From an uncultured Alphaproteobacteria bacterium (lineage in GTDB: Bacteria > Pseudomonadota > Alphaproteobacteria > CAAHEQ01 > UBA3637), in assembly GCA_947627155.1 (NCBI GenBank), contig CANQUX010000015.1, forward strand, positions 1 to 40,664: a stretch of DNA of 40,664 nt, given 5' to 3'. The first letter of the stretch is position 1. Every line of letters starts with the position of its first letter. Below the pieces are notes generated by a model, which did no database searches, was not told the origin of the DNA, and saw only the letters and a program-made list of their open reading frames with translations. The translations under genes were made by a program, and so were the position numbers. Below are positions 55-40,664 of this stretch, piece after piece.

Positions 55-211
55 AAACGTACGTTTTTTGCAACACTTTTTTTTGATTTTTTCAAAAAAA
101 ATTTAATGTGAGGTAAATTTAATGCAATATCAAACGGTTATAAAAAGCCTGTTTTACCAATTTTTGAGGGTATTTTTAGCCCTGAATCAGCGTTGCATTA
201 AAGGTACGTTT
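55..211 (+). repeat. Inverted-repeat element, copy 1 (candidate invertible promoter)
   Basis: This 157-bp element is bounded by AAACGTACGTTTTTTGCAAC (55-74) and GTTGCATTAAAGGTACGTTT (192-211), which are reverse complements except for a few central bases. The interior begins with a T-tract/A-tract block shared by all four copies. The right repeat contains TTGCAT, a -35 for the following pilin gene. It could be an invertible promoter cassette of a serine recombinase or a MITE-like element with outward -35 hexamers. Confidence 0.8.
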
Positions 212-221
212 AATTTATGCT
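193..221 (+). promoter_or_regulatory. Hybrid promoter of the first pilin gene
   Basis: The -35 TTGCAT (193-198) lies inside the right inverted repeat and the -10 TATGCT (216-221) lies just outside it, with 17-bp spacing. The pilin ribosome binding site follows about 10 bp downstream. The arrangement recurs at copies 2 and 3. Confidence 0.55.
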
Positions 222-246
222 ATTTGCATTGAAAGGAAGCGAAAAA

Positions 247-1743
247 ATGAAGAAAAAACAAGTTCAAAATCAAGCGCAAGAAGGCCGCAGTATGGTTGAA
301 ATGCTGGGCGTTTTGGCCATTATCGGGGTTATCTCAATAGGCGGCATTTCAGGATATAGAATGGCAATGAATCGATATCAAGCGAATCAAATAGCAAATG
401 AAATTAACCTGATGCGTACCGATGCAAAAATGAAAGTTGCCCGCGGGGTGGAAGAATTATTGCTCGGTTCGCCGTACGATGACGAAAAGCATTTGAATTT
501 TAATGCAAATTATGGCGTTAAGGTGGATTTTCCGGTTACGATATCGGATGAAGAAGGGGGAGAAGAGGGCTATTCATTTACATTATCGGGCATCCCGGCG
601 GGGGTATGTAAACCGTTAGCCACGTTATTAGACGGCATGGATGACACGGCCGTATTAGAAATTAACGGTAAAGATTATGAGACGGCAGAAACCCTTTGTG
701 ATAATGAAGAAAATGAAGTACTGGTAGCCTTTTCAACCAAAGATTTAGGTGGTATAAAAGTATGCAATCCCGAAAAGTGTCCGGGAGAATGTACCGAAAA
801 TGGCGAGTGCGAATGTCCAGAAGGAAGTCATTTAAGTGGCGATGAATGTGTAACTTGTTCGGATGAGGCGCCGTGGAATGGCAGTGAATGTGCTTGTCCG
901 GAAGCAAATGAATATTGGAACGGGAATGTATGTGTGGGTTGCAAAGGCGGTACATGGGATAATGATACAAAAACATGCACCTGTACCAGCGAAGAGCAGA
1001 CATGGAATGTGGCCACCGGTGAATGCACTTGCTCGTCAGAAAACCAACATTGGAATGGTTCCGGTTGCGTATCGTGTGAAAGAAATGAAGTATGGAATGA
1101 GGTTGATGGGCAATGTGAAGTGCCGGAATCGTACTGTCGCACGAATGCAGATTGTAATAAAGAGGGTAAGAAAGGTTATTTTTGCTACACGCGGTTGGGT
1201 AAAGATTGTTATATTGAGTTTGAAGATGGCGGCAATCGTAATTCAGGAACATGCAAACTAGTGAGTAGCTTTTTGAAGAAAAAAGCAAAGATTGGCGGCA
1301 CGACATACTATGGCACAACGAGTAATATGACGTGGTGGAGTGCGTGTCGGTTCTGTGCGGCAAGGAAAGGAGCAGATGATGGGATTTGTAAATCAGGCAC
1401 GTCGGGCACGACAGGCACAACGGAAGAACCGGATTTTATGGCAGGGTATGAAATGTTGCAATGTGCAGACAAGATAGATGTGGATAATCAAAAGACCGGT
1501 TATTGTCATGAAAGTGAAGCCGGGAACACAAGCAGAGCTGATGATAATATATCGGAGAAGGTGAAGGATTTAAGGGAAATGTATGGTTGTAGCAGAGAGG
1601 ATACGAGTTGTGATAACTATCCCTGGTTGAGAGACAGTTATTCTTCCTGCCGCGCGTACCGCGTCAGACTCGGCAATGGTAGCGTCAGCGACGTCACTCG
1701 CTACGCCAGCAACGGCCTCGACTACATCGCCTTATGTGAGTGA
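247..1743 (+). CDS. Type IV pilin-like adhesin with a DGR-type variable C-terminus
   Basis: This 498-residue protein has a prepilin-type leader of 13 residues ending in Gly, then RSMVE (Glu at +5) and a hydrophobic helix (about 19-38). I infer processing by prepilin peptidase and assembly into, or at the tip of, a surface pilus. The middle (about 175-310) is Cys-rich with EGF-like CxC repeats. The last 150 residues contain a TYYG...WWS...FC block and end in WL-D-Y...ALCE, resembling the C-type-lectin-like fold of DGR target proteins. Codons 466-498 are strongly biased to NNC/NNT, unlike the AT-rich body of the gene. The start at 247 is preferred over the in-frame ATG at 217 because AAAGGAAG precedes it and 217 lies over the -10. 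Fold and pilus role are inferred from motifs. Confidence 0.85.
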   Translation: MKKKQVQNQAQEGRSMVEMLGVLAIIGVISIGGISGYRMAMNRYQANQIANEINLMRTDAKMKVARGVEELLLGSPYDDEKHLNFNANYGVKVDFPVTISDEEGGEEGYSFTLSGIPAGVCKPLATLLDGMDDTAVLEINGKDYETAETLCDNEENEVLVAFSTKDLGGIKVCNPEKCPGECTENGECECPEGSHLSGDECVTCSDEAPWNGSECACPEANEYWNGNVCVGCKGGTWDNDTKTCTCTSEEQTWNVATGECTCSSENQHWNGSGCVSCERNEVWNEVDGQCEVPESYCRTNADCNKEGKKGYFCYTRLGKDCYIEFEDGGNRNSGTCKLVSSFLKKKAKIGGTTYYGTTSNMTWWSACRFCAARKGADDGICKSGTSGTTGTTEEPDFMAGYEMLQCADKIDVDNQKTGYCHESEAGNTSRADDNISEKVKDLREMYGCSREDTSCDNYPWLRDSYSSCRAYRVRLGNGSVSDVTRYASNGLDYIALCE

Positions 1744-1771
1744 GGCCGGCTTTTGAGAGGACGAAGCCATC
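1642..1771 (+). other. Candidate DGR variable region (VR1) and its conserved 3' tail
   Basis: Twenty-four of the 30 codons from 1642 to 1731 end in C, in a gene that otherwise prefers A/T. Aligned with the partial adhesin at 40020-40664, 15 of 23 ungapped codons differ, and 13 of these keep the third base. Most differing sites have A in one copy, as expected from adenine-directed mutagenesis of AAC/AAT template codons. After this, 1729-1771 matches the complement of 39992-40034 with one mismatch, the position of an initiation-of-mutagenic-homing element. No template repeat was found in the window. Confidence 0.75.
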
Positions 1772-1781
1772 TCCCTCCTGA

Positions 1782-1815
1782 TGCCCCGCCTTTAAGACTT
1801 CCATTCAGCGGGGCA
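1782..1815 (+). repeat. GC-rich stem-loop downstream of VR1
   Basis: TGCCCCGC (1782-1789) pairs perfectly with GCGGGGCA (1808-1815) around an 18-nt loop. It is repeated in reverse orientation at 39701-39734 with nearly the same loop. DGR variable regions are commonly followed by a hairpin or cruciform needed for retrohoming. This could be that element or a transcription terminator, although no T-run follows directly. Confidence 0.55.
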
Positions 1816-1827
1816 CCTCTTTTCTTC

Positions 1828-2474: not shown

Positions 2475-2630
2475 AAACGTACGATTTTTGCAACACTTTT
2501 TTTGCATTTTTGTAAAAAAAATTTAATTTAAGCGGAAATAATTGATTTTTCGAGTGTTTTTTAAGGGTGATTTTTTGCCTTTTGAAGGCAATTTTTACCC
2601 CCGAAACCGCGTTGCATTAAAGGTACGTTT
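2475..2630 (+). repeat. Inverted-repeat element, copy 2
   Basis: This 156-bp element is bounded by AAACGTACGATTTTTGCAAC (2475-2494) and GTTGCATTAAAGGTACGTTT (2611-2630). It has the same orientation and internal T/A-tract as the other copies. Its left flank, read outward, is AATTGAGGAAAGAGAA, identical to the right flank of copy 4 at 38470-38485. Confidence 0.8.
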
Positions 2631-2640
2631 ATTTTATGCT
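2612..2640 (+). promoter_or_regulatory. Hybrid promoter of the vWA pilin gene
   Basis: TTGCAT (2612-2617, inside the inverted repeat), 17-bp spacer, TATGCT (2635-2640, outside). The ATG at 2668 follows a GAAAGGGAG ribosome binding site. Confidence 0.55.
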
Positions 2641-2667
2641 ATTCGTAGAGTGAAAGGGAGTCGGAAA

Positions 2668-4272
2668 ATGACAAGACAATTCAAAAAACAAGTTCAAAAT
2701 CAATCGCAAAGCGGCCGTTCAATGATTGAAATGCTCGGCGTGCTGGCAATTATTGCTATTTTATCCATCGGGGGGATTGTGGGGTATAAATTAGCCATGA
2801 ATTATTATCAAGCCGACCAAATTGCTAATGAAATCAATCTCATGCGTAACGATTTAAAGGTAAAATATGCTTTGGGGAATGAAGAATTGTTGCTCGGGGA
2901 TCCTTATGATGATACACCCGAAAATGAAAATTACAGCGGGCATTTATCAACACAATATGACCGTTATCCTGTTGATTATGATTGCATTCGCAAAGACAAA
3001 GCAGAATTTTATAACTGCCGCGAAGCAGATGCTTATTATATTAAAGTCGGGAATGTTTCGAAAGGCGTTTGTAAACCGCTTACAACGCTTGTCAGCGCCA
3101 TGGACGGTTTAATGTATATGGAAATCAATAAAAAAGTTTATAAAGAAGATGATTTATGTGATGAAGCCAATGAAATTTACATTCAGTTTGACGCAGAGGA
3201 TGTGAACGGCAATTACGATTCGAATCGTCCAGAAGGATGGTGTGGCAAAGATGGTGATTGTGAAGAGCCGCAAGTTTGCGATAAGGAAAACAATACATGT
3301 GTAGAATGTACGGAAAATACACATTGTGCCTCAAATATATGTCGGAAAGATCATACTTGCGGTGAATGCACAAAAGATTCGGATTGTTCGAATCCGCGTC
3401 CGATTTGCGATACGGAATCGGCAACATGTATGAGATGTGCTGTTGATGATGAATGTCAAAAAGCCAATGTAAATAAACCTGTTTGCGACATGGGCACCGG
3501 TGCTTGTTGTGATGATTCGCTCATGACATGGAACGGCAGTGAATGCGTTTGCCCCGAAGATTATGCCAAATCGGAAACCAGCTCCGGTAAAGCCGTTTGT
3601 TTGCCCTATTGCGAGCAGGAAGTCGGCATTATTTTGTTAATTGATCATAGCGGTTCTATTGCCGGTATGATTAACGATTCTGATTTAGACAAAGTTCAAA
3701 AATATCACAAAGCAGTGGAACAAGTTGAAACAGCCATTGCACAACTTAATATTCCCCAAGAAGTTTATTCAGCGGTTTATTTATCGGGATGTTGGTATAA
3801 TAAAAATCACTACACTTGTAATAAAGTATGCAACGGATTAAGTTCCGATTCGAATGAGGGATATAAAATCAATGAACATTTGAAATATGGATTGCATAGT
3901 CCGGCACAAATTGCGGCAGCCATGAAAATTGACAGAGTTAAAGATGATATTTTGAGCGAGAAATGCAGTACTGTGGGATATGCCATCAAAGACAAAATTA
4001 TTCCTTTATGTAAAACAGGGGAAGAAAAATTTATTGTTGTTATTTATTGGGATAATTTTGACGAGATTGTTGATCCGCAATTAGAGGCGTTGGTTCAAAA
4101 ATGTCCTCAAACAAAAATTTATAATGTTGCCATAGACGGAAAATCTTATACGGGTTCAGGTGCTGCCGGTAACTTTAATTTAAATAATATCAACGATTTA
4201 AATAATGATATTAACAATGCATTGAATGAAGCCATTCAACAAGAAGCTTGTGTGCAACGCCCGGGCGGATGA
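2668..4272 (+). CDS. Type IV pilin-like protein fused to a von Willebrand A domain
   Basis: This 534-residue protein has leader MTRQFKKQVQNQSQSG, then RSMIE (Glu +5) and a hydrophobic helix, the prepilin signature. Residues 17 to about 190 are nearly identical to the pilin at 14153. Cys-rich CxxCxxxxxC repeats follow (about 190-310). From about residue 318 a von Willebrand A domain begins, with the MIDAS motif DHSGS (Asp326, Ser328, Ser330), a metal-dependent ligand-binding fold used by tip adhesins. The domain runs to the end and finishes in an Asn/Asp-rich helix. The likely role is a pilus-tip adhesin; no sortase motif or second membrane segment is seen. The start at 2668 is chosen because GAAAGGGAG precedes it and it matches the paralogue; the in-frame ATG at 2542 lies inside the inverted-repeat element. 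Confidence 0.85.
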   Translation: MTRQFKKQVQNQSQSGRSMIEMLGVLAIIAILSIGGIVGYKLAMNYYQADQIANEINLMRNDLKVKYALGNEELLLGDPYDDTPENENYSGHLSTQYDRYPVDYDCIRKDKAEFYNCREADAYYIKVGNVSKGVCKPLTTLVSAMDGLMYMEINKKVYKEDDLCDEANEIYIQFDAEDVNGNYDSNRPEGWCGKDGDCEEPQVCDKENNTCVECTENTHCASNICRKDHTCGECTKDSDCSNPRPICDTESATCMRCAVDDECQKANVNKPVCDMGTGACCDDSLMTWNGSECVCPEDYAKSETSSGKAVCLPYCEQEVGIILLIDHSGSIAGMINDSDLDKVQKYHKAVEQVETAIAQLNIPQEVYSAVYLSGCWYNKNHYTCNKVCNGLSSDSNEGYKINEHLKYGLHSPAQIAAAMKIDRVKDDILSEKCSTVGYAIKDKIIPLCKTGEEKFIVVIYWDNFDEIVDPQLEALVQKCPQTKIYNVAIDGKSYTGSGAAGNFNLNNINDLNNDINNALNEAIQQEACVQRPGG

Positions 4273-9398: not shown

Positions 9399-12300
9399 AT
9401 GTTTTATCGGCTAAAACAATCCGTTTTCTGTTTATGTGTTTCTTTTTATGCGTTTACTGTTTTTGCGCAACAGGCAACGGATACTCAAATTGAAATCAGC
9501 AAAGATAATCCGTCGTATGAGAATGATCAAGATTTAACAACTCAAAACGGTTATGATGTGTGGGTTAACGGTTTAGAGGGTTTTTCGGGATCATTTACCA
9601 ACAAGGGAAGCTTAAAAGTAACCGGTGCCGGTTGGGGTATATATGAATCGGCTTATCAAACACGTCCCGTTCAATTTGAATTGACGAACAATGGCACCAT
9701 TCAACGCATTCAATTAGAACAAATTGATAATCAGGCAATGGATTTAACGCAAAACGGTTCCATCTCTTTGAAAGACCTCCGCCCCAATAACTTTGATTAT
9801 CATCGCGGCAGCCCTTATTTAATAACGAATAACGGAACCATTGAAGGATCGGCCTGGTTCGGTGTGAATACAACCGTTTTCAACAATGGAGAAGGTAAAT
9901 TTAAAAATTTCAGCTTGGATAATTCGAATACGGATAAAGGCAATTTGGTTTCGTTCGGATATAACGGATTGTTTTTGAACGGTGTGAAGTGGAATATTGA
10001 AGAAGATGAAGCAGGAAATCTTAGCCTGACCTCTGTTACGTTTGCACCTTCTGCCGAGCTGACAACCGATAAAGTGCAATTTGCTTATCAGGGAATGCTC
10101 TTGAACGGCGGTATTATCAATAATAAATCGCTCACGTTCGGTGATTCGGGGTATTTATATAACGTCGGCAACGCGTATGATAAAGAAGATATCGGCGGGT
10201 TGTCAAAATATGGTGCAACCATTACCACCGGCAGTGTTATTATGGGAGCGAACAGTCTGCTCATCAATGAAATGGGAACGCATTTTACCGCTGACAGTAT
10301 ACAAATGGGTGACGGGGCTTTTGTTTCTTTGGGTGATGATTATAATTTATATGTTGAAGAAACCGAATCGATTACCGTAACGAATTCGGACGGCTCGGAA
10401 ACCACGGAAGAAGTTGTTATTCCCACTTTTCCGCACCAAGCGGAAATGAACGTTAAAAAAGCAACTTTCGGAAATAATTCTGCGTTTTCCATATTGAATG
10501 ACGCCATTTATCAAGGGGAAACAATGTCATTTAAGGACAACGGCATTTTCTCCATGCAAAGCGGAAATATCACACTTCAAAATAACGACGGTAACGGCTT
10601 GTTATCATTCGGCAATAATGCCCAAATCGATATTGACGGTATGGTTCAACAATTTCCGGTATTGACTGACACGGATGCGGAAGATGCGGAAGAAGAAGAT
10701 TCTAAAACAGCACCGACTTACACAATAACTCAAAAGCTTTTAGATGCTGATTTAACCGTTGATACCTTTCAAACGGGTACCGGTGCGCTCATTAATATCG
10801 CAACGAACAACGGTTGTATTACAGATGAATACGGCAACGAAAAATGTGCGAACGTTAATGTAAATGTTAAGCAGGGTCTTTTCGGTGATCAAACGCACAT
10901 GGTTTTAGGTGATAAAAATGCAAAACTGACGGCAGAAAATTTTCTTTCATTCGGCAATAATTCAATATTGGAAAACGGGCAAGATGAAAATAAAAGTAAT
11001 GCTTTTATTTCTTCCCCGCTGATTACTTTTGGCGATAACGGCGGTTTAATAAATAAAGGAACAATAAACGGCGAAAGCTTAATTATGGGACGAAACAGCC
11101 AAATTGATAATTATAAAAGCATTTCTTTAAAAACAACGCTCGGCAGTAATTCAACGGCCAATTTAATATGGGGATCTCCCCAAGATTTTAATTATATACG
11201 TGGGGTCGTTCTTCCCAAATTTACCGGTGGTGTGCAGCGGGCGGAAGGCGCAACGGGTGTTCATATTGTAAACAAAACAGGATATGATTCTGAAAGAGAA
11301 GAGTTCATTGCCGGTTACATTACCGGCGGTATCAACGTGGATTCAATTTTGGTTGACACGGGTGAATTGCAAATGTCGGGTGATGTGCGCGGCATTATCG
11401 GCATTAACACCGATGCGCAATTACGGTTGGTTGATACCGATGTGTTTATTCATGATTCGATATCCAAATTATCTGATGCCACCAACACAAAATTGATTAT
11501 TGATTTAGAAGGCGATGATCATTTTTACAAAACAAGCAACACCATTAATGTTGATCATATTTTGGTTGCGGGCGGCGGCTTTGAAATTAACAATCCCGTA
11601 CGGGCAAATGAAATTAAATTAGAAAGTAACACGTCCGTTCGGTTAGATGGTAATTATTTTGCGGGTGATATTGTTGAAATGCATGAAGATGCCACCAATA
11701 CAACATTGGATGTTAATGCGCAAAACGGTAAAACCATTTATTCGCCCGGCGTTATTAAAGTTGATCGCGTTGTGGTTGAAAACGGCACGTTTGATATTAA
11801 TCACGCCATGGAGGCAACCTATAAATCCGAATCATCGGTCATGCCGCTCACCAACGAATCGGGTTTGGAGTTAAACAGCAATACCGTTGTTAATGTCAAT
11901 TCAAACGATGTGAATGTCAATCGTATCGTGCGCGGACAGTTGGCATTAAAGCAAGGAGAAAACGTTGAGAACACAACCGTCAATGTGAATGGCGGCAAAT
12001 TAACGGTTGAACGCAATACCGATGTGGATCGGCTGTCCATTAACGGCGGTACGTTTGAATTTAAAAACGAAGATACGAATAACGTGATTAACATCGGCAA
12101 AAATGTATCCGTCAATCATAACGGGCAAATTGCCGGCAGCGGTTTAATGAACATTCGCGACGGCTCGTTGGATATTAACGAAGGCGGACGTCTTTCCGTT
12201 TCAACCGAATCGGTTTATAAAAAGCCGCTGGGTGTTATGGAAATTATGCAATCTCAAACGGTTTATTCCGATGCTGCCGAGGTGACCGATAAAGGAAACG

Positions 12301-13796
12301 CAACGGTCAACTTTAATGCGGGCGGTATATTGGATTTACGCGCCCAAGACAAGGAAAGTGATAAAATTGTTGTGTCGGGCACGGTTAATTTGGGTGAAGA
12401 TATGCGCGTTATTTTGCGCGATATTAAACCCAATCAGGAATATGATATTTTAAGCGCCACGCAACTGAACGGCGATATTGAAAAAATTCGCACGTCGTTT
12501 TTATGGTCGGGTGCAACGTTTAAAAACGAAGACAATGTGTTATCTTTGAAAATTGACGGATTGCAAACGCTTAACGAGGGCATTCAAGCGGTGCAACATT
12601 CCGCCAACATTGACAGCATTGCCGCGGCAATGGAGGCTATTAACAATCGAACGGCCTCAAACACCGTTGATCCGTTTTTGGATCGCGTGTTCTATGCCTT
12701 TACGGCCGATGAAGCCGTTGACGTGATGGGGCAATATTCGCCGGAGGGATATTTAAACACGCAGCAGGCCGGTTTGCGTTTAACAAGAATGTTTAAGGCG
12801 GCCGCCTCCGATGAATTGAACGATTTAAGAACATATAAAGAAGCCTATGAAAACCGCTATTTAAAACCGCGTGCCGTTTATGATCCGCATTACTACGGCC
12901 GTCCGGGCTATGAATCTTATTACAGCGACTGGACAAATAAGCGCGGAAATCAACGGCGCACGCGCACCGATAAAGGCGGTATTTGGGTCAAACCGTTTAT
13001 GATAAATGTTAATCAGGACAATAACAAAAACATTGCCGGTTACGAATTTTCGAACTATGGTTTAACGGCCGGTATTGATAAACGATTCGGCTCATTGTCT
13101 TTGGGTTTGATGGGCTTATATGCCGACGGGTCAACGGATCAAAACAATAAATTGATTGAAACCGATATGAAAACTTACGGTGCCGGCATTTACGGTTATT
13201 TCCGCCCCTATAAATCAAGACAATTCTTGAATTTATATGCTTTATGGACTCAAACCTCCAATTCGGCAAAGCATCATATCAATTCGTTGGTGGAAGCCGC
13301 CAAAGCCGATTTTGATATGACAACTTATGCCGTCGGGGCAGATATCGGCGTGGATATTCCCGTCAATCCGCGCTTTATTCTCACGCCGAAAGTCGGCATT
13401 GATTATGCCAAAGCCTCGTTGGATGAAATTAACGAAACAGGTGATTCATTAGGTCGGTTAAAGGTAACGGCCAATGATTATACATCCCTGCAAACGCCGG
13501 TGGAATTACGCGCACTGCTTGATTTGGGCAATGAGACTTTCCGCTTTAAACCCGAAGCCCATGCCCGCTGGACGCATGAATTCGGTGATACAAAATCAAC
13601 GGGGCAAGGCTTGTTTGTCAATTATAATCAACCGTTCGGCATTGAAAGCGTTACCGCTGATAAAGATACGTTCACGCTGGGCGGTTCGCTCTTATGGCTT
13701 TATGCCGTTTCGGAGTTAGAACTGAAATACGATTATGATTTCGGCAGCACCAGTACGGGTCATTCGTTGAATGCGTCATATAAATATTTATTCTGA
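9399..13796 (+). CDS. Large autotransporter adhesin (type V secretion)
   Basis: This 1465-residue protein has a Sec signal peptide (residues 1-24, cleavage after VFA) and a long passenger of repetitive Asn/Gly-rich beta-strand segments (NNGTI, GGxxxIN, FGNNS patterns, about 25-1100) typical of a beta-helix. The C-terminal autotransporter barrel (about 1190-1465) starts at GGIWVKPF and ends in aromatic YKYLF, as outer-membrane barrels do. It would insert in the outer membrane and display the passenger, probably for adhesion or autoaggregation. There are almost no Cys residues, as usual. AAGGAG precedes the ATG. It stands alone, followed by a compound palindrome and the third pilin promoter element. 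No protease triad was recognised. Confidence 0.9.
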   Translation: MFYRLKQSVFCLCVSFYAFTVFAQQATDTQIEISKDNPSYENDQDLTTQNGYDVWVNGLEGFSGSFTNKGSLKVTGAGWGIYESAYQTRPVQFELTNNGTIQRIQLEQIDNQAMDLTQNGSISLKDLRPNNFDYHRGSPYLITNNGTIEGSAWFGVNTTVFNNGEGKFKNFSLDNSNTDKGNLVSFGYNGLFLNGVKWNIEEDEAGNLSLTSVTFAPSAELTTDKVQFAYQGMLLNGGIINNKSLTFGDSGYLYNVGNAYDKEDIGGLSKYGATITTGSVIMGANSLLINEMGTHFTADSIQMGDGAFVSLGDDYNLYVEETESITVTNSDGSETTEEVVIPTFPHQAEMNVKKATFGNNSAFSILNDAIYQGETMSFKDNGIFSMQSGNITLQNNDGNGLLSFGNNAQIDIDGMVQQFPVLTDTDAEDAEEEDSKTAPTYTITQKLLDADLTVDTFQTGTGALINIATNNGCITDEYGNEKCANVNVNVKQGLFGDQTHMVLGDKNAKLTAENFLSFGNNSILENGQDENKSNAFISSPLITFGDNGGLINKGTINGESLIMGRNSQIDNYKSISLKTTLGSNSTANLIWGSPQDFNYIRGVVLPKFTGGVQRAEGATGVHIVNKTGYDSEREEFIAGYITGGINVDSILVDTGELQMSGDVRGIIGINTDAQLRLVDTDVFIHDSISKLSDATNTKLIIDLEGDDHFYKTSNTINVDHILVAGGGFEINNPVRANEIKLESNTSVRLDGNYFAGDIVEMHEDATNTTLDVNAQNGKTIYSPGVIKVDRVVVENGTFDINHAMEATYKSESSVMPLTNESGLELNSNTVVNVNSNDVNVNRIVRGQLALKQGENVENTTVNVNGGKLTVERNTDVDRLSINGGTFEFKNEDTNNVINIGKNVSVNHNGQIAGSGLMNIRDGSLDINEGGRLSVSTESVYKKPLGVMEIMQSQTVYSDAAEVTDKGNATVNFNAGGILDLRAQDKESDKIVVSGTVNLGEDMRVILRDIKPNQEYDILSATQLNGDIEKIRTSFLWSGATFKNEDNVLSLKIDGLQTLNEGIQAVQHSANIDSIAAAMEAINNRTASNTVDPFLDRVFYAFTADEAVDVMGQYSPEGYLNTQQAGLRLTRMFKAAASDELNDLRTYKEAYENRYLKPRAVYDPHYYGRPGYESYYSDWTNKRGNQRRTRTDKGGIWVKPFMINVNQDNNKNIAGYEFSNYGLTAGIDKRFGSLSLGLMGLYADGSTDQNNKLIETDMKTYGAGIYGYFRPYKSRQFLNLYALWTQTSNSAKHHINSLVEAAKADFDMTTYAVGADIGVDIPVNPRFILTPKVGIDYAKASLDEINETGDSLGRLKVTANDYTSLQTPVELRALLDLGNETFRFKPEAHARWTHEFGDTKSTGQGLFVNYNQPFGIESVTADKDTFTLGGSLLWLYAVSELELKYDYDFGSTSTGHSLNASYKYLF

Positions 13797-13958: not shown

Positions 13959-14114
13959 AAACGTACGTTTTTTGCAACACTTTTTTTTGATTTTTTCAAA
14001 AAAAATTTAATTTGGCCGGAATTCATTGATTTTTCGACTGTTTTTGAGGGGTGAATTTTTATTTTTTGAGAGCAATTTTAACCCCGGAATCCGCGTTGCA
14101 TTAAAGGTACGTTT
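13959..14114 (+). repeat. Inverted-repeat element, copy 3
   Basis: This 156-bp element is bounded by AAACGTACGTTTTTTGCAAC (13959-13978) and GTTGCATTAAAGGTACGTTT (14095-14114). The symmetry extends outward on both sides by AATT. The left repeat contains a perfect palindrome AAACGTACGTTT. It has the same orientation as the other three copies. Confidence 0.8.
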
Positions 14115-14125
14115 AATTGTATACT
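14096..14125 (+). promoter_or_regulatory. Hybrid promoter of the third pilin gene
   Basis: TTGCAT (14096-14101) in the right inverted repeat, 18-bp spacer, TATACT (14120-14125) outside the element, 27 bp before the ATG. Confidence 0.55.
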
Positions 14126-14152
14126 ATTCGTAGAGTGAAAGGGAGTCGGAAA

Positions 14153-15685
14153 ATGACCATGCAATCAAAAAAACAATTTAAAAATCAATCTCAAAGCGGG
14201 CGCTCAATGGTTGAAATGCTGGGCGTGTTGGCTATTATTGCTATTCTGTCCATCGGCGGGATTGTGGGCTATAAATTAGCTATGAACTATTATCAGGCCG
14301 ATCAGATTGCGAATGAAATTAACTTAATGCGCAACGATTTAAAGGTTAAATACGCTTTGGGAAATGAAGAATTGTTGTTGGGGGATCCTTATGATGATAC
14401 ACCCGAAAATGAAAATTACAGCGGGCATTTATCAACACAATATGATCGTTATCCCGTTGATTATGATTGCATCCGTAAAGACAAAGCAGAATTTTATAAC
14501 TGCCGTGAAGCGGATGCTTATTATATTAAAGTGGGGAATGTTTCGAAAGGGGTTTGTAAACCGTTAACAACACTTGTTAATGCCATGGACGGTTTAATGT
14601 ATATGGAAATTAACAAAGAAGTTTATAAAGAAAACGATTTATGTTCAAGTGATGAAGCCAATGAATTTTATATTCAGTTTGATGCAGAAGAAGTGAACGG
14701 AAACTATGATTCGAATCGTCCCGAAGGTTGGTGTGGTGATGATGAAGATTGTGAAGAGCCGCAAGTTTGCGATAAAGAGAGCAATATGTGTGTGGAGTGC
14801 ACGGAAAATGCGGATTGTGACTCAAATATATGTCGGAAAAATCATACTTGCGGCGAATGCGTCTCCGATTCGGATTGTACAAATACCGAAACACCCAAAT
14901 GCAACCAAAATACAAACACTTGCGAATCGTGTCCGCCGGAAACGCCCATATGGTATAACAATAAATGTGTGGAGTGCATAACATATAACGATTGCACGAA
15001 TGATATTGATAAACCGAACTGTAACGCGGGAACAAACACATGTGAACCGTGTCCGCAAAATTCGTTTTGGGACGGGGAAAAATGTCAAGAGGGGTGTCGA
15101 GAAAACAGTCACTGTGCCGAAGATGAATATTGTTATAAATTGGATGGATTTTCTTGTACGGATGAATGGAAAAATGAAGAAGATTTCAGCGGTTCCTGTC
15201 GAAAAGTGGAGGGTGATTTAATTTCCGGAACAGTGGATGGGCAAACTTATTACGGATCAAACAATGCAATGAATTGGTGGAGTGTGAAACGGTTTTGTGA
15301 AGCAGCCGCTCAATTGGGACACGGAAACGGACAAATGGCCGTTTGGGGAAAGCCGGACTTTAAATGTCATTCGTTTTCCGAGCTGACAACATCAAGCGGT
15401 CCATATTGTCATAAAAACGACACTGATGTTCATATTGGAGATTTTAATGATCTTTCAACAACGGTGGAAGAATTAAGGAAAATGTTTGGTGTGACCCACA
15501 CGGGAGAATGGGATACGGAAACGATTGATATTTGGTTATTAAATCAACCATCAACCGATTGTCTTATGTTTGAGATAGAAATTTCCACGCCTCAAAACTC
15601 CAAAGGACAAAAACCAGGAGTTATTCTGCATGCCACCGAAGCTACACATCTTCAACGAGCAAATCATGCCTTATGTCAACCTTAA
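14153..15685 (+). CDS. Type IV pilin-like adhesin, non-variable lectin-like C-terminus
   Basis: This 510-residue paralogue of the protein at 2668 has a nearly identical first 190 residues (leader MTMQSKKQFKNQSQSG, RSMVE, hydrophobic helix), then Cys-rich repeats (about 190-330). The C-terminal domain of about 170 residues (GQTYYGS...MNWWSVKRFC ... NHALCQP) is homologous to that of the variable adhesins. Its final codons are ordinary AT-rich ones, and the shared GCCTTATGT tail diverges right after, without the 43-bp conserved element. It therefore looks like a family member outside, or escaped from, DGR targeting. GAAAGGGAG lies before the ATG at 14153; the in-frame 14117 is upstream of the -10 and was rejected. 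An adhesive pilus-tip role is inferred. Confidence 0.85.
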   Translation: MTMQSKKQFKNQSQSGRSMVEMLGVLAIIAILSIGGIVGYKLAMNYYQADQIANEINLMRNDLKVKYALGNEELLLGDPYDDTPENENYSGHLSTQYDRYPVDYDCIRKDKAEFYNCREADAYYIKVGNVSKGVCKPLTTLVNAMDGLMYMEINKEVYKENDLCSSDEANEFYIQFDAEEVNGNYDSNRPEGWCGDDEDCEEPQVCDKESNMCVECTENADCDSNICRKNHTCGECVSDSDCTNTETPKCNQNTNTCESCPPETPIWYNNKCVECITYNDCTNDIDKPNCNAGTNTCEPCPQNSFWDGEKCQEGCRENSHCAEDEYCYKLDGFSCTDEWKNEEDFSGSCRKVEGDLISGTVDGQTYYGSNNAMNWWSVKRFCEAAAQLGHGNGQMAVWGKPDFKCHSFSELTTSSGPYCHKNDTDVHIGDFNDLSTTVEELRKMFGVTHTGEWDTETIDIWLLNQPSTDCLMFEIEISTPQNSKGQKPGVILHATEATHLQRANHALCQP

Positions 15686-30881: not shown

Positions 30882-31090
30882 AAGGCAAGTGATGTGTGCC
30901 CCGAGGTGTGACAACCTCTCTTACTGTATCCTTGAAAAAGGATAAATATTACTCTCTTTTGACTGTGTGTCAAAGGAAAAGTAGGTCAAGTGGCCGGAAG
31001 GTAGTAAAATAAGCCTTTTGGTCAATATACTGCACTATATCAGTAAGATAGTTGTCAACTTCCGGTCGCCTCTCATCAAGGCGATTTTTT
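30882..31090 (+). ncRNA. Structured RNA or leader of unknown family (about 209 nt)
   Basis: It runs from a good promoter to an intrinsic terminator (TCGCCT 31066-31071 / AGGCGA 31079-31084, six T). Internal hairpins are GAGGT/ACCTC (near 30903-30918), ATCCTT/AAGGAT (30929-30943), CTTTTGAC/GTCAAAGG (near 30956-30977) and TACTG/CAGTA (near 31027-31045). CCGGAAG (30994-31000) pairs at distance with CTTCCGG (31059-31065), directly next to the terminator stem. The terminator ends 16 nt before the pilin ATG, so this is either a stand-alone small RNA or a leader with an attenuator. It does not match the 6S, SRP, tmRNA or c-di-GMP riboswitch motifs I know. Its 3' end recurs at position 1. Confidence 0.6.
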
Positions 31091-31106
31091 CATAAAGGAA
31101 GCGAAA

Positions 31107-32234
31107 ATGACAAACAAAAGAAAGCAGTTAAAACAAATTCAAAATCAAGCACAAGACGGGCGTTCAATGGTTGAAATGCTTGGCGTTTTAGCTATTATCG
31201 GCGTTATTTCACTTGGTGGCATTGCGGGATATAGATTAGCAATGAATCATTATCAGGCGAATCAAGTTGCCCACGAATTGAATATGATGCGTACCGATGC
31301 GCAGGTAAAAATTGCCCAAGGGACGGAAAAATTAACGCTGGGCAGCCCTTATGATGATCATAAAATCAATTTTAACGACTATAAAACGAACTTTGATTGT
31401 GCTTTGGCCAATGAAGAAGAAGTTATACTCAATGATGTTTCCTGTTATGCCGCGAACGCTTATTATATAGAATTGCAAGAGATTCCCGAAGATGTGTGTC
31501 AACCGCTGGCACGCCTGATTAACGGCATGGATAATTTAATTGATTTTTATGTAAACGAATCTGATGCGGAAGGAGTAGGAAAAGACACTTGCGATGAAGG
31601 AAACAACACATTAACGGCAATTTTCGGCGCCGATTCGGATTCGAACGCCATTAAATGCGATGATGCCGACGAATGCCCCGAAAACTTGCCTGTTTGTCTT
31701 AACCATATGTGTGTGGAGTGCGAAACGAAAGCTCAATGTTCGGCAAGGGGAAAAGATCCCTATTGTGATGAAGAAACACATCGTTGCGATTGTCCTGACG
31801 GGGGAACATATCAAAATGAATATAACGCTTGCGTGATTGATGTTGAAACAAAATTTTTCATTACACCGAATCCGTCATGCACTAAAATAACACCCCGACC
31901 GTTTGGCCCTTATAAACATTCTTATGAAATTTGGGGACATGGAACAATTGATGATTTTCTTCTTTTATATTTAAATAAAGAGGGTCCGGAAGATACATCT
32001 GATGTAACAAAATGTAACAGTGGTTATGATGCCATAAGACACGGTTGCGGTGACTCTAAAAGAGATTTCTGTCCTGATTTTAAATTGTGGGATTTAAAAG
32101 CGGGTGATTATGGAAATTTAGTTGTGGGTGATCCTGTTACATGGGGTAGTTGGGGTATTGGTTGGGTTGATGAAACAGAGGGCAAACCGCACCGAAATGA
32201 TGGCAAGATTTGGTTGATTTTAAAAGATGAATGA
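31107..32234 (+). CDS. Type IV pilin-like protein with a distinct C-terminal domain
   Basis: This 375-residue protein has an 18-residue leader ending QDG, then RSMVE (Glu +5) and a hydrophobic helix to about 43. The region to about 180 is homologous to the other pilins (NHYQANQVAHELNMMRTDAQVKIAQG). A short Cys-rich part (about 185-240) follows, then a C-terminal domain (about 245-375) unrelated to the lectin-like or vWA modules: IWGHGTIDDFLLLYLNKEG, GDPVTWGSWGIGWVDE, ending IWLILKDE. I do not recognise it; it is probably another tip module. The ribosome binding site is AAAGGAAG. Unlike the other pilins, it lacks the inverted-repeat element and sits directly behind the structured RNA's terminator. 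Confidence 0.85.
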   Translation: MTNKRKQLKQIQNQAQDGRSMVEMLGVLAIIGVISLGGIAGYRLAMNHYQANQVAHELNMMRTDAQVKIAQGTEKLTLGSPYDDHKINFNDYKTNFDCALANEEEVILNDVSCYAANAYYIELQEIPEDVCQPLARLINGMDNLIDFYVNESDAEGVGKDTCDEGNNTLTAIFGADSDSNAIKCDDADECPENLPVCLNHMCVECETKAQCSARGKDPYCDEETHRCDCPDGGTYQNEYNACVIDVETKFFITPNPSCTKITPRPFGPYKHSYEIWGHGTIDDFLLLYLNKEGPEDTSDVTKCNSGYDAIRHGCGDSKRDFCPDFKLWDLKAGDYGNLVVGDPVTWGSWGIGWVDETEGKPHRNDGKIWLILKDE

Positions 32235-38304: not shown

Positions 38305-38332
38305 GTTATACATAAACGTACGATTTTTGCAA
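38305..38332 (-). promoter_or_regulatory. Hybrid promoter of the glycosyltransferase gene
   Basis: On the minus strand, TTGCAA (38327-38332, inside the left repeat), 16-bp spacer, TATAAC (38305-38310, outside). The long A-tract of the element lies directly upstream, like an UP element. Confidence 0.5.
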
Positions 38333-38469
38333 CACTTTTTTTTGATTTTTTCAAAAAAAATTTTTTTGAGGTGTAATTTTTTGATTTCAAAAGGTTTTTT
38401 GCTTGTTTGCCTTGCTTTTTATAAGTGCTTGAAAAGTGTCGAAAAAATCGTTGCATTAAAGGTACGTTT
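38314..38469 (+). repeat. Inverted-repeat element, copy 4
   Basis: This 156-bp element is bounded by AAACGTACGATTTTTGCAAC (38314-38333) and GTTGCATTAAAGGTACGTTT (38450-38469). The right flank AATTGAGGAAAGAGAA (38470-38485) is the left flank of copy 2 in reverse. The interior is the most diverged of the four after its first 35 bp. Confidence 0.8.
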
Positions 38470-38516
38470 AATTGAGGAAAGAGAAGCAGAGAAAATATGT
38501 TTATTTTATTCGGTCT

Positions 38517-38572: not shown

Positions 38573-38681
38573 AAGTAAAGGCTGAATTTATGTTTTCCTG
38601 TTTACAGGTGATGACTTCTCTCTCTTATTTTCGGGGTGATGATAATTTATTTTGAGGAAAGATTATCGCTTTGTTTCTTAA

Positions 38682-38735
38682 TTTTCGGTGGGAAGTGCTA
38701 TCCCGCAATTGTGGGATAGCGCGGTGTGCCGAAAA
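38682..38735 (+). repeat. Compound palindrome, family A
   Basis: Outer stem TTTTCGGT/GCCGAAAA, inner hairpin CTATCCCGC/GTGGGATAG around AATT. Confidence 0.75.
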
Positions 38736-38799
38736 TAAGAAAGGCAGAAAAAATGAATTCGGCATTATTGCTTAAAATTGTGTGGCACTCTCCTTTTTT

Positions 38800-38860
38800 C
38801 CCTATCGGCGGATGGGACAGACGGCGTTCAGTCGTCTGTCGCTATGGGCCGATAGGAGGG
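38800..38860 (+). repeat. Compound palindrome, family C
   Basis: Outer stem CCCTATCGGC/GCCGATAGGAGG, inner hairpin GACAGACGGC/GTCGTCTGTC. Confidence 0.75.
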
Positions 38861-38946
38861 GATAGACGGCAGACTGTCATTTTGGTAAAAGTGGTAAAGA
38901 TAAAGGATATTTTTCTCTCTTTGTTTGTAATTGGCTCACTTTCTTC

Positions 38947-39000
38947 TTTTCGGCGGGAAGGGCTATCCCGCAATTGTGGGATAGCGTGGTTTGTCGAAAA
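38947..39000 (+). repeat. Compound palindrome, family A
   Basis: Outer stem TTTTCGGC/GTCGAAAA, inner CTATCCCGC/GTGGGATAG, with small changes in the shoulders (AGGGC, GTGGTTTG). Confidence 0.75.
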
Positions 39001-39047
39001 TAAGAGGCGATTCGGTGAAAAACAATAAGTTTGCTGTAAACTTTTTT

Positions 39048-39110
39048 CCCTCTATCGGCGGATGGGACAGACGGCTTTATGTCGTCTGTCGCTATGGGCC
39101 GATAGGGGGA
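39048..39110 (+). repeat. Compound palindrome, family C
   Basis: Outer stem CCCTCTATCGGC/GCCGATAGGGGG, inner GACAGACGGC/GTCGTCTGTC; nearly identical to 39487-39546. Confidence 0.8.
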
Positions 39111-39235
39111 ATGACGGCAGGGAAGATAAAGATTGCTAGTATTCCTTCTCCTCTCAATTTGCAGACGATGACTCTTTTTTCTTATTTTTTGCAATATTTA
39201 TTTTTTTATGGCGATTGTATTTGCTTTCTTTCTTA

Positions 39236-39289
39236 TTTTCGGCGGGAAGTGCTATCCCGCTTTTGTGGGATAGCGCGGTGTGCCGAAAA
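39236..39289 (+). repeat. Compound palindrome, family A
   Basis: Outer stem TTTTCGGC/GCCGAAAA, inner CTATCCCGC/GTGGGATAG with loop TTTT in place of AATT. Confidence 0.75.
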
Positions 39290-39346
39290 TTAAGAAAAGA
39301 AGAAAGCAAAAAAAAGAGAGAGGAATGCTTGATTGTGTCTCTGCCT

Positions 39347-39407
39347 CTCATTCTCGGCGGATGTGGAGCGGCACAATTGCGCCGCTCCGCTATGTGCCGA
39401 GAATGAG
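39347..39407 (+). repeat. Compound palindrome, family B
   Basis: Perfect 12-bp outer stem CTCATTCTCGGC/GCCGAGAATGAG and inner hairpin GGAGCGGC/GCCGCTCC. Confidence 0.8.
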
Positions 39408-39486
39408 AAAGAAAAGGCAGCGAATCGAAAGCAGAGTTATTTATTTGATATAGCAGTCTATTATCTGTATGTAGCACTCTCTTTTT

Positions 39487-39546
39487 CCCTCTATCGGCGG
39501 GTGGGACAGACGGCTTTATGTCGTCTGTCGCTATGGGCCGATAGGG
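39487..39546 (+). repeat. Compound palindrome, family C
   Basis: Outer stem CCCTCTATCGGC/GCCGATAGGGG, inner GACAGACGGC/GTCGTCTGTC. Confidence 0.8.
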
Positions 39547-39634
39547 GAAAAGGGACGGCAGGTTGTTATTTTGGCAGAAGTGGTAAAGACAAACGATATT
39601 TTTCTTCTCTATTTGCAGTGAGCACTCTCTTTTC

Positions 39635-39689
39635 TTTTCGGCGGGAAGTGCCGGCTCGTGGAACGTGAGCCGGTGCGGTGGGCTGAAAA
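39635..39689 (+). repeat. Compound palindrome, family A
   Basis: Outer stem TTTTCGGC/GGCTGAAAA, inner GCCGGCTC/GAGCCGG, the module also seen at 30761. Confidence 0.7.
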
Positions 39690-39700
39690 GAGAGGAGAGG

Positions 39701-39734
39701 TGCCCCGCTGAATGGGAGTCTTAAAGGCGGGGCA
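39701..39734 (-). repeat. GC-rich stem-loop, reverse copy of 1782-1815
   Basis: TGCCCCGC/GCGGGGCA with nearly the same 18-nt loop as downstream of VR1, in the opposite orientation. With the neighbouring palindrome it extends the inverted homology between the two window ends. Confidence 0.6.
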
Positions 39735-39744
39735 TCAGGGAGCG

Positions 39745-39945: not shown

Positions 39946-39974
39946 CCCCGCGGGCTTTTAAATGCCCGCTGGGG
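39946..39974 (-). repeat. GC-rich stem-loop downstream of VR2
   Basis: CCCCGCGGGC and GCCCGCTGGGG form a 10-bp stem with one mismatch around an AT loop, about 45 bp after the last adhesin stop. This is the same place as the hairpin after VR1. It is a candidate DGR target hairpin or terminator. Confidence 0.5.
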
Positions 39975-39991: not shown

Positions 39992-40124
39992 GATGGCTTC
40001 GTCCTCTCAAAAGCTGGCCTCACTCACATAAGGCGTAGTGGTTGAAGGTGCGATAGCTGTTGTCGACGTGACCACTGCTAAGGTTGACGTAGTACGCGTT
40101 GTGGGAAGAATCGTACATATCGGA
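39992..40124 (-). other. Candidate DGR variable region (VR2) and its conserved 3' tail
   Basis: On the minus strand the final codons of the adhesin are mostly NNC (CAC, AAC, TAC, GAC, AGC, TTC), and they differ from VR1 at codon positions 1 and 2. The tail 39992-40034 matches 1729-1771 with one mismatch. VR2 is four codons shorter than VR1 near its end and one codon longer near its start. Confidence 0.75.
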
Positions 40125-40664
40125 CAACCAGTACAAATTGTTTCCATATTTTTCTCTCAATGTTGTAACTGTGCTTGATATATTACTGTCATCCTTACTT
40201 GTGTTCCTCGCCTTTGTTTGATGGCAATAACCGGTTTTCCCTTTTACTATTTCATCGGCACAATTTAAATCAGATATGCTCGCCATGCTTTTATTATGAC
40301 TTGCACAGAAGTTTTCAGCACTCCACCAACTCATATATTCGTTTTTCGCTATAAATGTCTTTCCATTTACCTCTACCGTTCCGGTAGGCATATTACTTCT
40401 ACATTCTCCATAACCTGCTTGTTTAGCAGCATTGTTTGAAGAATAAAAATAGCAATACTGGTTTGCTTCACAATCTTCATTGCTTTCGCATTCACCGAGT
40501 TTTTGCGTTGTCGTTGTTACAGTCGTGGTGGTTACAGTTGTAGTGGTAGTTGTGGCCTCTGTCGTTGTTGTAGCCTCCGTTGTCGTGGTTTCCGGCGTTG
40601 TTGTCACAGTCGTGGTTGTCGTGGTCGGCTCCGTTACCTCAGGCGTGTAAATATGCTCCGACGT
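40020..40664 (-). CDS. Partial pilin-family adhesin with Thr-rich linker and variable C-terminus
   Basis: The frame is open to the window edge, so the gene starts beyond 40664; the GTG at 40607 is inside a linker and is not a start. The visible 214 residues are a Thr-rich stretch (TTTTEATTTTEA, about 55 residues, probably an O-glycosylatable or extended stalk), a Cys-rich EGF-like piece (CESNEDCEANQYCYF), and a lectin-like C-terminal domain with NGKTFIAKNEYMSWWSAENFC...GYCHQTKARNTS...WLSDMYDSS...HYALCE. It is homologous to the C-terminus of the protein at 247. A pilin-type N-terminus is expected outside the window. It ends in a candidate DGR variable region. Confidence 0.8.
   Translation of the reverse strand, partial: TSEHIYTPEVTEPTTTTTTVTTTPETTTTEATTTTEATTTTTTVTTTTVTTTTQKLGECESNEDCEANQYCYFYSSNNAAKQAGYGECRSNMPTGTVEVNGKTFIAKNEYMSWWSAENFCASHNKSMASISDLNCADEIVKGKTGYCHQTKARNTSKDDSNISSTVTTLREKYGNNLYWLSDMYDSSHNAYYVNLSSGHVDNSYRTFNHYALCE

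Follow-up and report, generated by a model that had tools for sequence, protein, structure and literature searches.

A dispersed family of prepilin-like DGR target genes with an inferred core in a 1.56-Mb alphaproteobacterial genome

Described systems and the locus studied here

The DGR of Bordetella phage BPP-1 (Mtd, Brt, Avd) has adenine-directed codons, a target with a C-type lectin fold, a conserved 3′ tail and a GC-rich hairpin downstream of the variable region (VR); the hairpin has a stem of 7–10 bp and a 4-nt GRNA loop, and such a downstream structure is needed for efficient homing (PMC3240598). The locus described here is alike in these respects, but has at least 25 dispersed targets rather than one, hairpins that mostly have an 8-bp stem and an 18-nt loop, targets that vary in length by whole codons, and an assembly without the core. 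The TvpA-type DGR of Treponema denticola is similar in that several remote surface-protein targets are served by one template repeat (TR) and one reverse transcriptase (RT), and some isolates have targets but no RT or TR (PMC4891356); it differs in having at most seven TvpA-like targets with an FGE-sulfatase domain, as against 25 prepilin-like targets and what appear to be at least three templates here. Thiohalocapsa PB-PSB1 likewise has incomplete loci that are rewritten in trans and many targets per genome (9 loci, 15 targets; PMC10907252), although those are proposed to be conflict-system sensors and involve several RT classes, whereas the targets described here all belong to a single pilin-like family of paralogs, in a genome of 1.56 Mb. 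For Pseudomonas, a case of 91 TR-VR pairs is mentioned as atypical, with few A-to-N substitutions (PMC6642488), and surveys limited to RT neighbourhoods would miss targets of the kind described here (PMC8144416). Both larger-than-usual sets of targets in trans and targets that persist in genomes without RT or TR are already known; what is new is the scale within a 1.56-Mb genome, the uniformly prepilin-like targets, several apparent templates combined with codon-unit length differences, and, in a sister genus, candidate template/VR satellites that have no RT.

Closer comparison is provided by relatives that carry avd-TR-RT cassettes (genomes G001, G004, G008, G010, G026 and G028, each with a template), whose templates read NVN..NNNNRNNNNY or similar. 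The RT of these relatives matches PF00078 and has as its best PDB match chain 8ub7_A (E 5.5e-29), which we take to be the BPP-1 enzyme, and their Avd matches bAvd and DivGenRetAVD. Avd is not universal in DGRs. The cassettes resemble the present system in having template Asn-codon runs ending in ALC or AVC, NWWSA-motif targets and a C-terminal VR, and differ from it in having few targets each with the core present; G010 carries, besides its cassette, two TR/VR pairs that lack RT and Avd.

The window analysed is a 40,664-nt stretch of DNA from a gut bacterium with a very small genome, corresponding to an entire contig (C15), so both of its VRs lie near contig ends (Table 1). We consider it likely that the VR near its right end (VR2) is the C-terminal tip of a prepilin-like adhesin whose family has at least 25 members and is diversified in trans by a DGR that uses at least three templates, and whose core is unassembled, unbinned or very recently lost. 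Neither RT, template nor Avd was found in the assembly, and for this reason we speak of a family of DGR targets whose core is inferred and not of a complete DGR. The family is unusually large, and is probably trans-acting and multi-template.

Table 1. Coordinates of DGR-related features in the window
Feature	Position	Strand	Description
Target gene 1	217..1743	+	Prepilin-like N terminus (GRSMVEMLGVLAIIGV), Cys-rich stalk, C-terminal VR1
VR1 and conserved end	1645..1740	+	9 codons in AAC run; template type CCCT
VR1 tail, 43 bp	1728..1770	+	Exact reverse complement of search pattern
VR-associated GC-rich hairpin after VR1	1781..1818	+	8-bp stem, 18-nt loop
VR-associated hairpin element copy (ATGCCCCGCC...GCGGGGCACCT)	39698..39735	-	One of 24 genome copies
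VR2 tail and ~300-bp downstream segment	39746..40049	-	Common to the C2 locus with RT remnant (local alignment)
GC-rich hairpin, 53 nt after VR2 stop	39950..39969	-	6-bp stem, 8-nt loop; hairpin scan p 0.025 vs shuffles
Extended tail, 43 bp	39993..40035	+	7 genome copies with 0–1 mismatch
Core tail GCCTTATGTGAGTGAGGCC, 19 bp, IMH-like	40016..40034	-	Stop codon inside
VR2 including core tail	40016..40106	-	C-terminal VR of prepilin-like, Thr-stalked protein
Target gene 2	40020..40664	-	5′ end beyond contig; Thr-rich stalk, Cys-rich segment, C-terminal C-type-lectin-like domain with VR
VR2 proper	40035..40106	-	19 codons (TCC...CGC) and 5 AAC-run codons; aligned with 24 other VRs

Target genes, tails and downstream hairpins

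The initial annotation placed a second VR at the far end of the window from the first, in a Thr-stalked gene ending as a DGR target, and both points are borne out: the 43-bp tails of the two regions differ by one mismatch, and target gene 2 has a Thr-rich stalk and the adenine pattern. The visible part of this gene is open to the contig end with zero internal stops. VR2 ends with GCC TTA TGT GAG TGA, and in its alignment with 24 other VRs the variable positions are the A sites and the conserved positions are the others.

The whole assembly (G000; 1,558,032 bases in 32 contigs, 95.83% complete) was searched with a hypothetical template in which each variable codon is AAC or AAT, and this reveals 25 strong VR copies (E 9e-25 to 6e-9) on 16 contigs. 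All 25 lie inside open frames, with the stop codon within a conserved tail (GCC TTA TGT GAG TGA G, a few with one-base variants). The IMH-like 3′ tail common to all 25 VRs has a conserved core of only 19 bp (GCCTTATGTGAGTGAGGCC), and the 43-bp version is present in seven of these, the two in the window and five beyond it that the suggested search for further tail-bearing genes recovers; a reversed-pattern control gives 0 copies. The concern that the tail might occur beside non-variable sequence is not borne out: each of the 25 strong copies terminates a variable gene, and the three weaker ones resemble decayed VRs, one being a C3 gene whose tail carries a 15-bp insertion and the other two fragments of the tail alone, on C9 and C6. 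Matches to the 19-mer in Halieaceae/Luminiphilus are coding coincidences in another gene. The earlier proposal of one DGR acting in trans on several genes stands to the extent that VR2 is far from any RT, implying action in trans, but its count of two targets understates a set of 25 VRs.

The prepilin-like N terminus (GRSMVEMLGVLAIIGV...) is present in 22 of the 25 VR genes, the remaining three being cut upstream of the motif. Its leader reads G(R)SMVE and runs into a hydrophobic helix, as in type IV prepilins, and a prepilin peptidase (A24) is encoded in the genome at C21:7783-8106; the Pfam N_methyl match to the leader is weak (E 1.7). Three more genes in the window (2542-4272, 14117-15685 and 31047-32234) have the same prepilin-like leader without a VR or tail, and the leader family is thus larger than the DGR target set. 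An element of ~157 bp with terminal inverted repeats (TAAACGTACG...GTACGTTTA) occurs four times in the window (55-212, 2475-2631, 13959-14115 and 38314-38470), in three cases a short distance 5′ of a prepilin-like gene. Its left motif is present in 18 of the 23 VR-gene loci fetched genome-wide, on the gene's strand where checked, and the element appears to be either a promoter or 5′ leader that the genes have in common or a mobile repeat bearing one. The pilin-like adhesins in the window are accompanied by a 1465-aa autotransporter (9399-13796; PF03797, E 1.8e-41).

Pfam assigns no family to the target domain. An AlphaFold model, with the window protein and 29 paralogs and relatives as input, has a pLDDT of 81.8 and is similar to C-type lectin domains, with VIA-align Z scores of up to 11.7 and an rmsd of 1.8 Å over 88 residues, and Foldseek likewise matches it to such domains; in this predicted structure the variable residues are carried by a C-terminal C-type lectin domain. 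Known DGR variable proteins have this fold too. Solved DGR variable proteins are absent among the best Foldseek matches, which carries no weight either way. Likeness of fold by itself says nothing on function; the variable tips presumably bind surfaces or cells.

A GC-rich hairpin is located 24–58 nt past the stop codon in 25/25 VRs, and is significant against shuffled sequences (p<0.05) in 24/25. The commonest of these (ATGCCCCGCC...GCGGGGCACCT) has 24 copies in the genome, of which 21 are within ~60 nt 3′ of a VR stop. Hairpins had been noted within about 50 bp after each tail in the window, and they begin 53 nt (VR2) and 41 nt (VR1) after the stop. A hairpin or cruciform 3′ of the VR is a character of DGRs, and its loop is here unlike the BPP-1 consensus. 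Because the loop is usually 18 nt, as against the 4-nt GRNA of BPP-1, a role in homing is putative; alternatively, the hairpins may be transcription terminators. Further hairpins form an intergenic array 3′ of the VR2 gene (38640-39680), in which large repeats of 50–70 bp alternate (TCGGCGGATGGGACAGACGGC... and TTTTCGGCGGGAAGTGCTATCCCGC...), and units resembling these are also found 3′ of other VR genes.

Variation, template types and VR length

Variation was scored over 57 alignable bases in the 25 VRs relative to a template inferred from the VRs themselves. The VRs differ from it mainly at template adenines, as in DGRs, with 267/525 cells (51%) differing at A sites and 82/900 (9%) at the others (Fisher p ~4e-69). 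Within AAC/AAT codons, positions 1–2 are changed in 265/500 cells and position 3 is no longer a pyrimidine (C/T) in 7/250. The real templates of relatives agree independently with the inferred one (...SCNAYNVNLNNGNVNNNNRNNNNYAVCR in G026 and ...SSNAYNVNLSSGAVNNNNRNNNNYALCE in G010), and by its substitution pattern the variation belongs to the type that DGRs produce. It is scarcely credible that no DGR is involved and that a paralogous adhesin family was instead diversified through point mutation, selection and gene conversion: the genes are indeed paralogs with some exchange evident, but variation is limited to positions 1–2 of codons that are AAC/AAT in the templates of relatives, while silent sites are fixed. 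Diversification with no DGR is in practice refuted.

Among the 82 non-adenine differences, 45 are located in four silent columns that are mutually linked. These define three main haplotypes (CTCT, TCTC and CCTC) and a rare one (CCCT); the marker haplotypes are also present in the congeneric genome G006, and CTCT is found on contigs of other rabbit-gut bins as well. As the VRs fall into three main types by the four linked markers, the simplest reading would be that at least three template repeats are used, a single template that altered through time being a weaker alternative. Several templates per RT do occur in the family, since the sister-genus genome G010 has three intergenic templates on three contigs, each beside a matching VR gene, together with one RT and Avd. 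Two of the G010 template/VR pairs (C16:2309-2387, locus L172, and C32:2149-2208, locus L173) have no RT or Avd nearby, with the single RT elsewhere in the genome, and are candidate non-autonomous DGR satellites.

The VRs also differ in length. Between CGC and GCC-TTA there are 5 codons in VR2 and 9 in VR1, so the four-codon difference reported between them is real; lengths across the genome range from 4 to 9 codons, always in whole codons. These differences fall mostly in the (AAC)n run and are present within each marker haplotype. They also occur in relatives with a single known template, where one VR in G004 has an added AACACA unit and one in G001 an added codon. The initial annotation took the length difference to suggest separate templates, and while separate templates are supported through the linked silent markers, length is ruled out as proof of them, as it varies both within haplotypes and in the single-template relatives. 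Whole-codon variation is as would be expected from reverse-transcriptase slippage, and slippage on AAC repeats in multiples of three was proposed earlier for DGR indels (PMC12875486). Slippage in the VR after mutagenesis is not favoured, with 23 adjacent identical AAC-run codons observed against 21.7 expected (p 0.41). In G006 one VR (L072/L079) carries a tandem duplication of 21 nt that lies between two GACAAT repeats, and this duplication came after mutagenesis because both copies carry the same mutated codons. The many natural VRs, with their several template types and lengths, offer a direct test of slippage as a source of useful loop-length diversity.

The inferred core, an RT remnant and a proposed mechanism

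The assembly (95.8% complete) has no RVT_1/PF00078 match, and a relative's RT used as query also finds none; a family-profile search for Avd gives no match in G000 or G006. The search for template repeats proposed in the initial annotation yields none among the 25 strong matches in the assembly, and intact RT, Avd or template were also not found in G006 (76% complete). A Thr-repeat gene at the end of C5 was rejected as a template, having low-complexity matches only. A profile of four family RTs has a single match, ~75 codons resembling the RT C terminus, located directly 3′ of a VR gene (C2:90443-90679, L097). The remnant is at the same place in G006 (C17:7646-7828, L098) and is more eroded in G007, likewise congeneric (L062, about 1170-1260); as it is common to all three genomes, one RT locus was lost before the three species split. 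The segment that follows VR2 in the window is the same as that separating the C2 VR from the remnant, with the homology ending at the hairpin where the RT remnant starts on C2, and the two loci are therefore related by duplication.

The remnant bears on a second reading, which we regard as unlikely, that the core was lost and that the 25 VRs are inherited fossils, selected as fixed lectin tips and reshuffled by ordinary recombination. It fits the two assemblies without RT, Avd or TR and the remnant shared by three species, and T. denticola isolates that have targets but no RT/TR provide a published precedent (PMC4891356). Replacement of gene bodies at syntenic loci is also in keeping with it: at two clearly syntenic G000/G006 loci the gene bodies differ (~68–70% identity), indicating that gene replacement alters these loci besides rewriting, and VR differences at syntenic loci were consequently dropped as proof of activity after the split. 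However, the remnant is older than the G000/G006 split, and fossil VRs should show the 7–20% four-fold site divergence seen in most G000/G006 orthologous genes (range 2–30%), whereas only 2/139 four-fold VR sites deviate in G000 (P 0.009 assuming 6% per lineage and 4e-6 assuming 12%). The smaller G006 set has 2/65 (P 0.24 if 6%, 0.012 if 12%); the test is strong only when pooled, uses modest numbers and assumes the per-lineage divergence. Moreover, non-adenine sites are homogeneous and adenine sites are not, a pattern that gene conversion does not yield. Non-adenine deviations are unevenly distributed in G000, with zero in seven VRs and 4–6 in a few, as expected if VRs were refreshed at different times. 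These comparisons favour rewriting that went on after the G000/G006 split, in which case the core would be other than the remnant, and we infer that a working RT/Avd/template core is present elsewhere in the cell but was not assembled or binned, or that it was lost very recently.

The positions of the VRs suggest how a core could be missed. For ten of the 25, a contig end is no more than 2.5 kb away, where 2.6 such cases are expected (p 1e-4), and such loci therefore break assemblies. Breakage, and a fall below binning length, would be a particular risk for a locus that holds several near-identical templates, and this is a candidate explanation for the missing core. It is quite improbable that the core is instead on a mobile element (phage or plasmid) that was left out by binning and rewrites chromosomal genes in trans. 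RT and TR are absent from two separately assembled genomes, as such an element would predict, and relatives of the RT are present in viral contigs (24–46% identity), but the templates of these viral relatives all differ from the inferred template, viral contigs contain no exact tail match, the target domain has no relatives in phage or plasmid records, and the cassettes of close relatives are on contigs of up to 147–253 kb. A similar NVNNNNRN core is present in four phage templates, all of them from other DGRs.

In the trans-acting DGR that we favour, an RT-Avd complex would copy the template RNA with random bases placed opposite adenines, and the cDNA would then take the place of a target gene's 3′ end at the conserved GCCTTATGTGAGTGAGGCC tail, a step in which the hairpin that follows probably assists. 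Slippage on AAC runs, either as the template is copied or in the template itself, would add or remove whole codons and thereby change loop length. A broader generalisation, which we hold tentatively and with some doubt, is of a distributed DGR in which one RT and several templates serve at least 25 pilin-tip genes in trans in a minimal genome, AAC slippage, by changing loop length, regularly diversifies the tips along a second axis besides base substitution, and families of targets survive while the RT core is repeatedly lost and relocated. Should the core be confirmed, the target set would be among the largest that we found described in one cell (compared with 15 in Thiohalocapsa and 7 in T. 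denticola), and type IV pilin-like fibres would rank as a main class of targets for the cellular DGRs of gut bacteria.

Rabbit-gut bins with probable mis-binning were rejected as a place for the RT, since the sole one found (in the Gastranaerophilales bin) has an unrelated template. VR-bearing contigs of the same alphaproteobacterial type are present in public bins labelled Akkermansia and Gastranaerophilales (L074, L075 and L078), a placement that likely reflects mis-binning.
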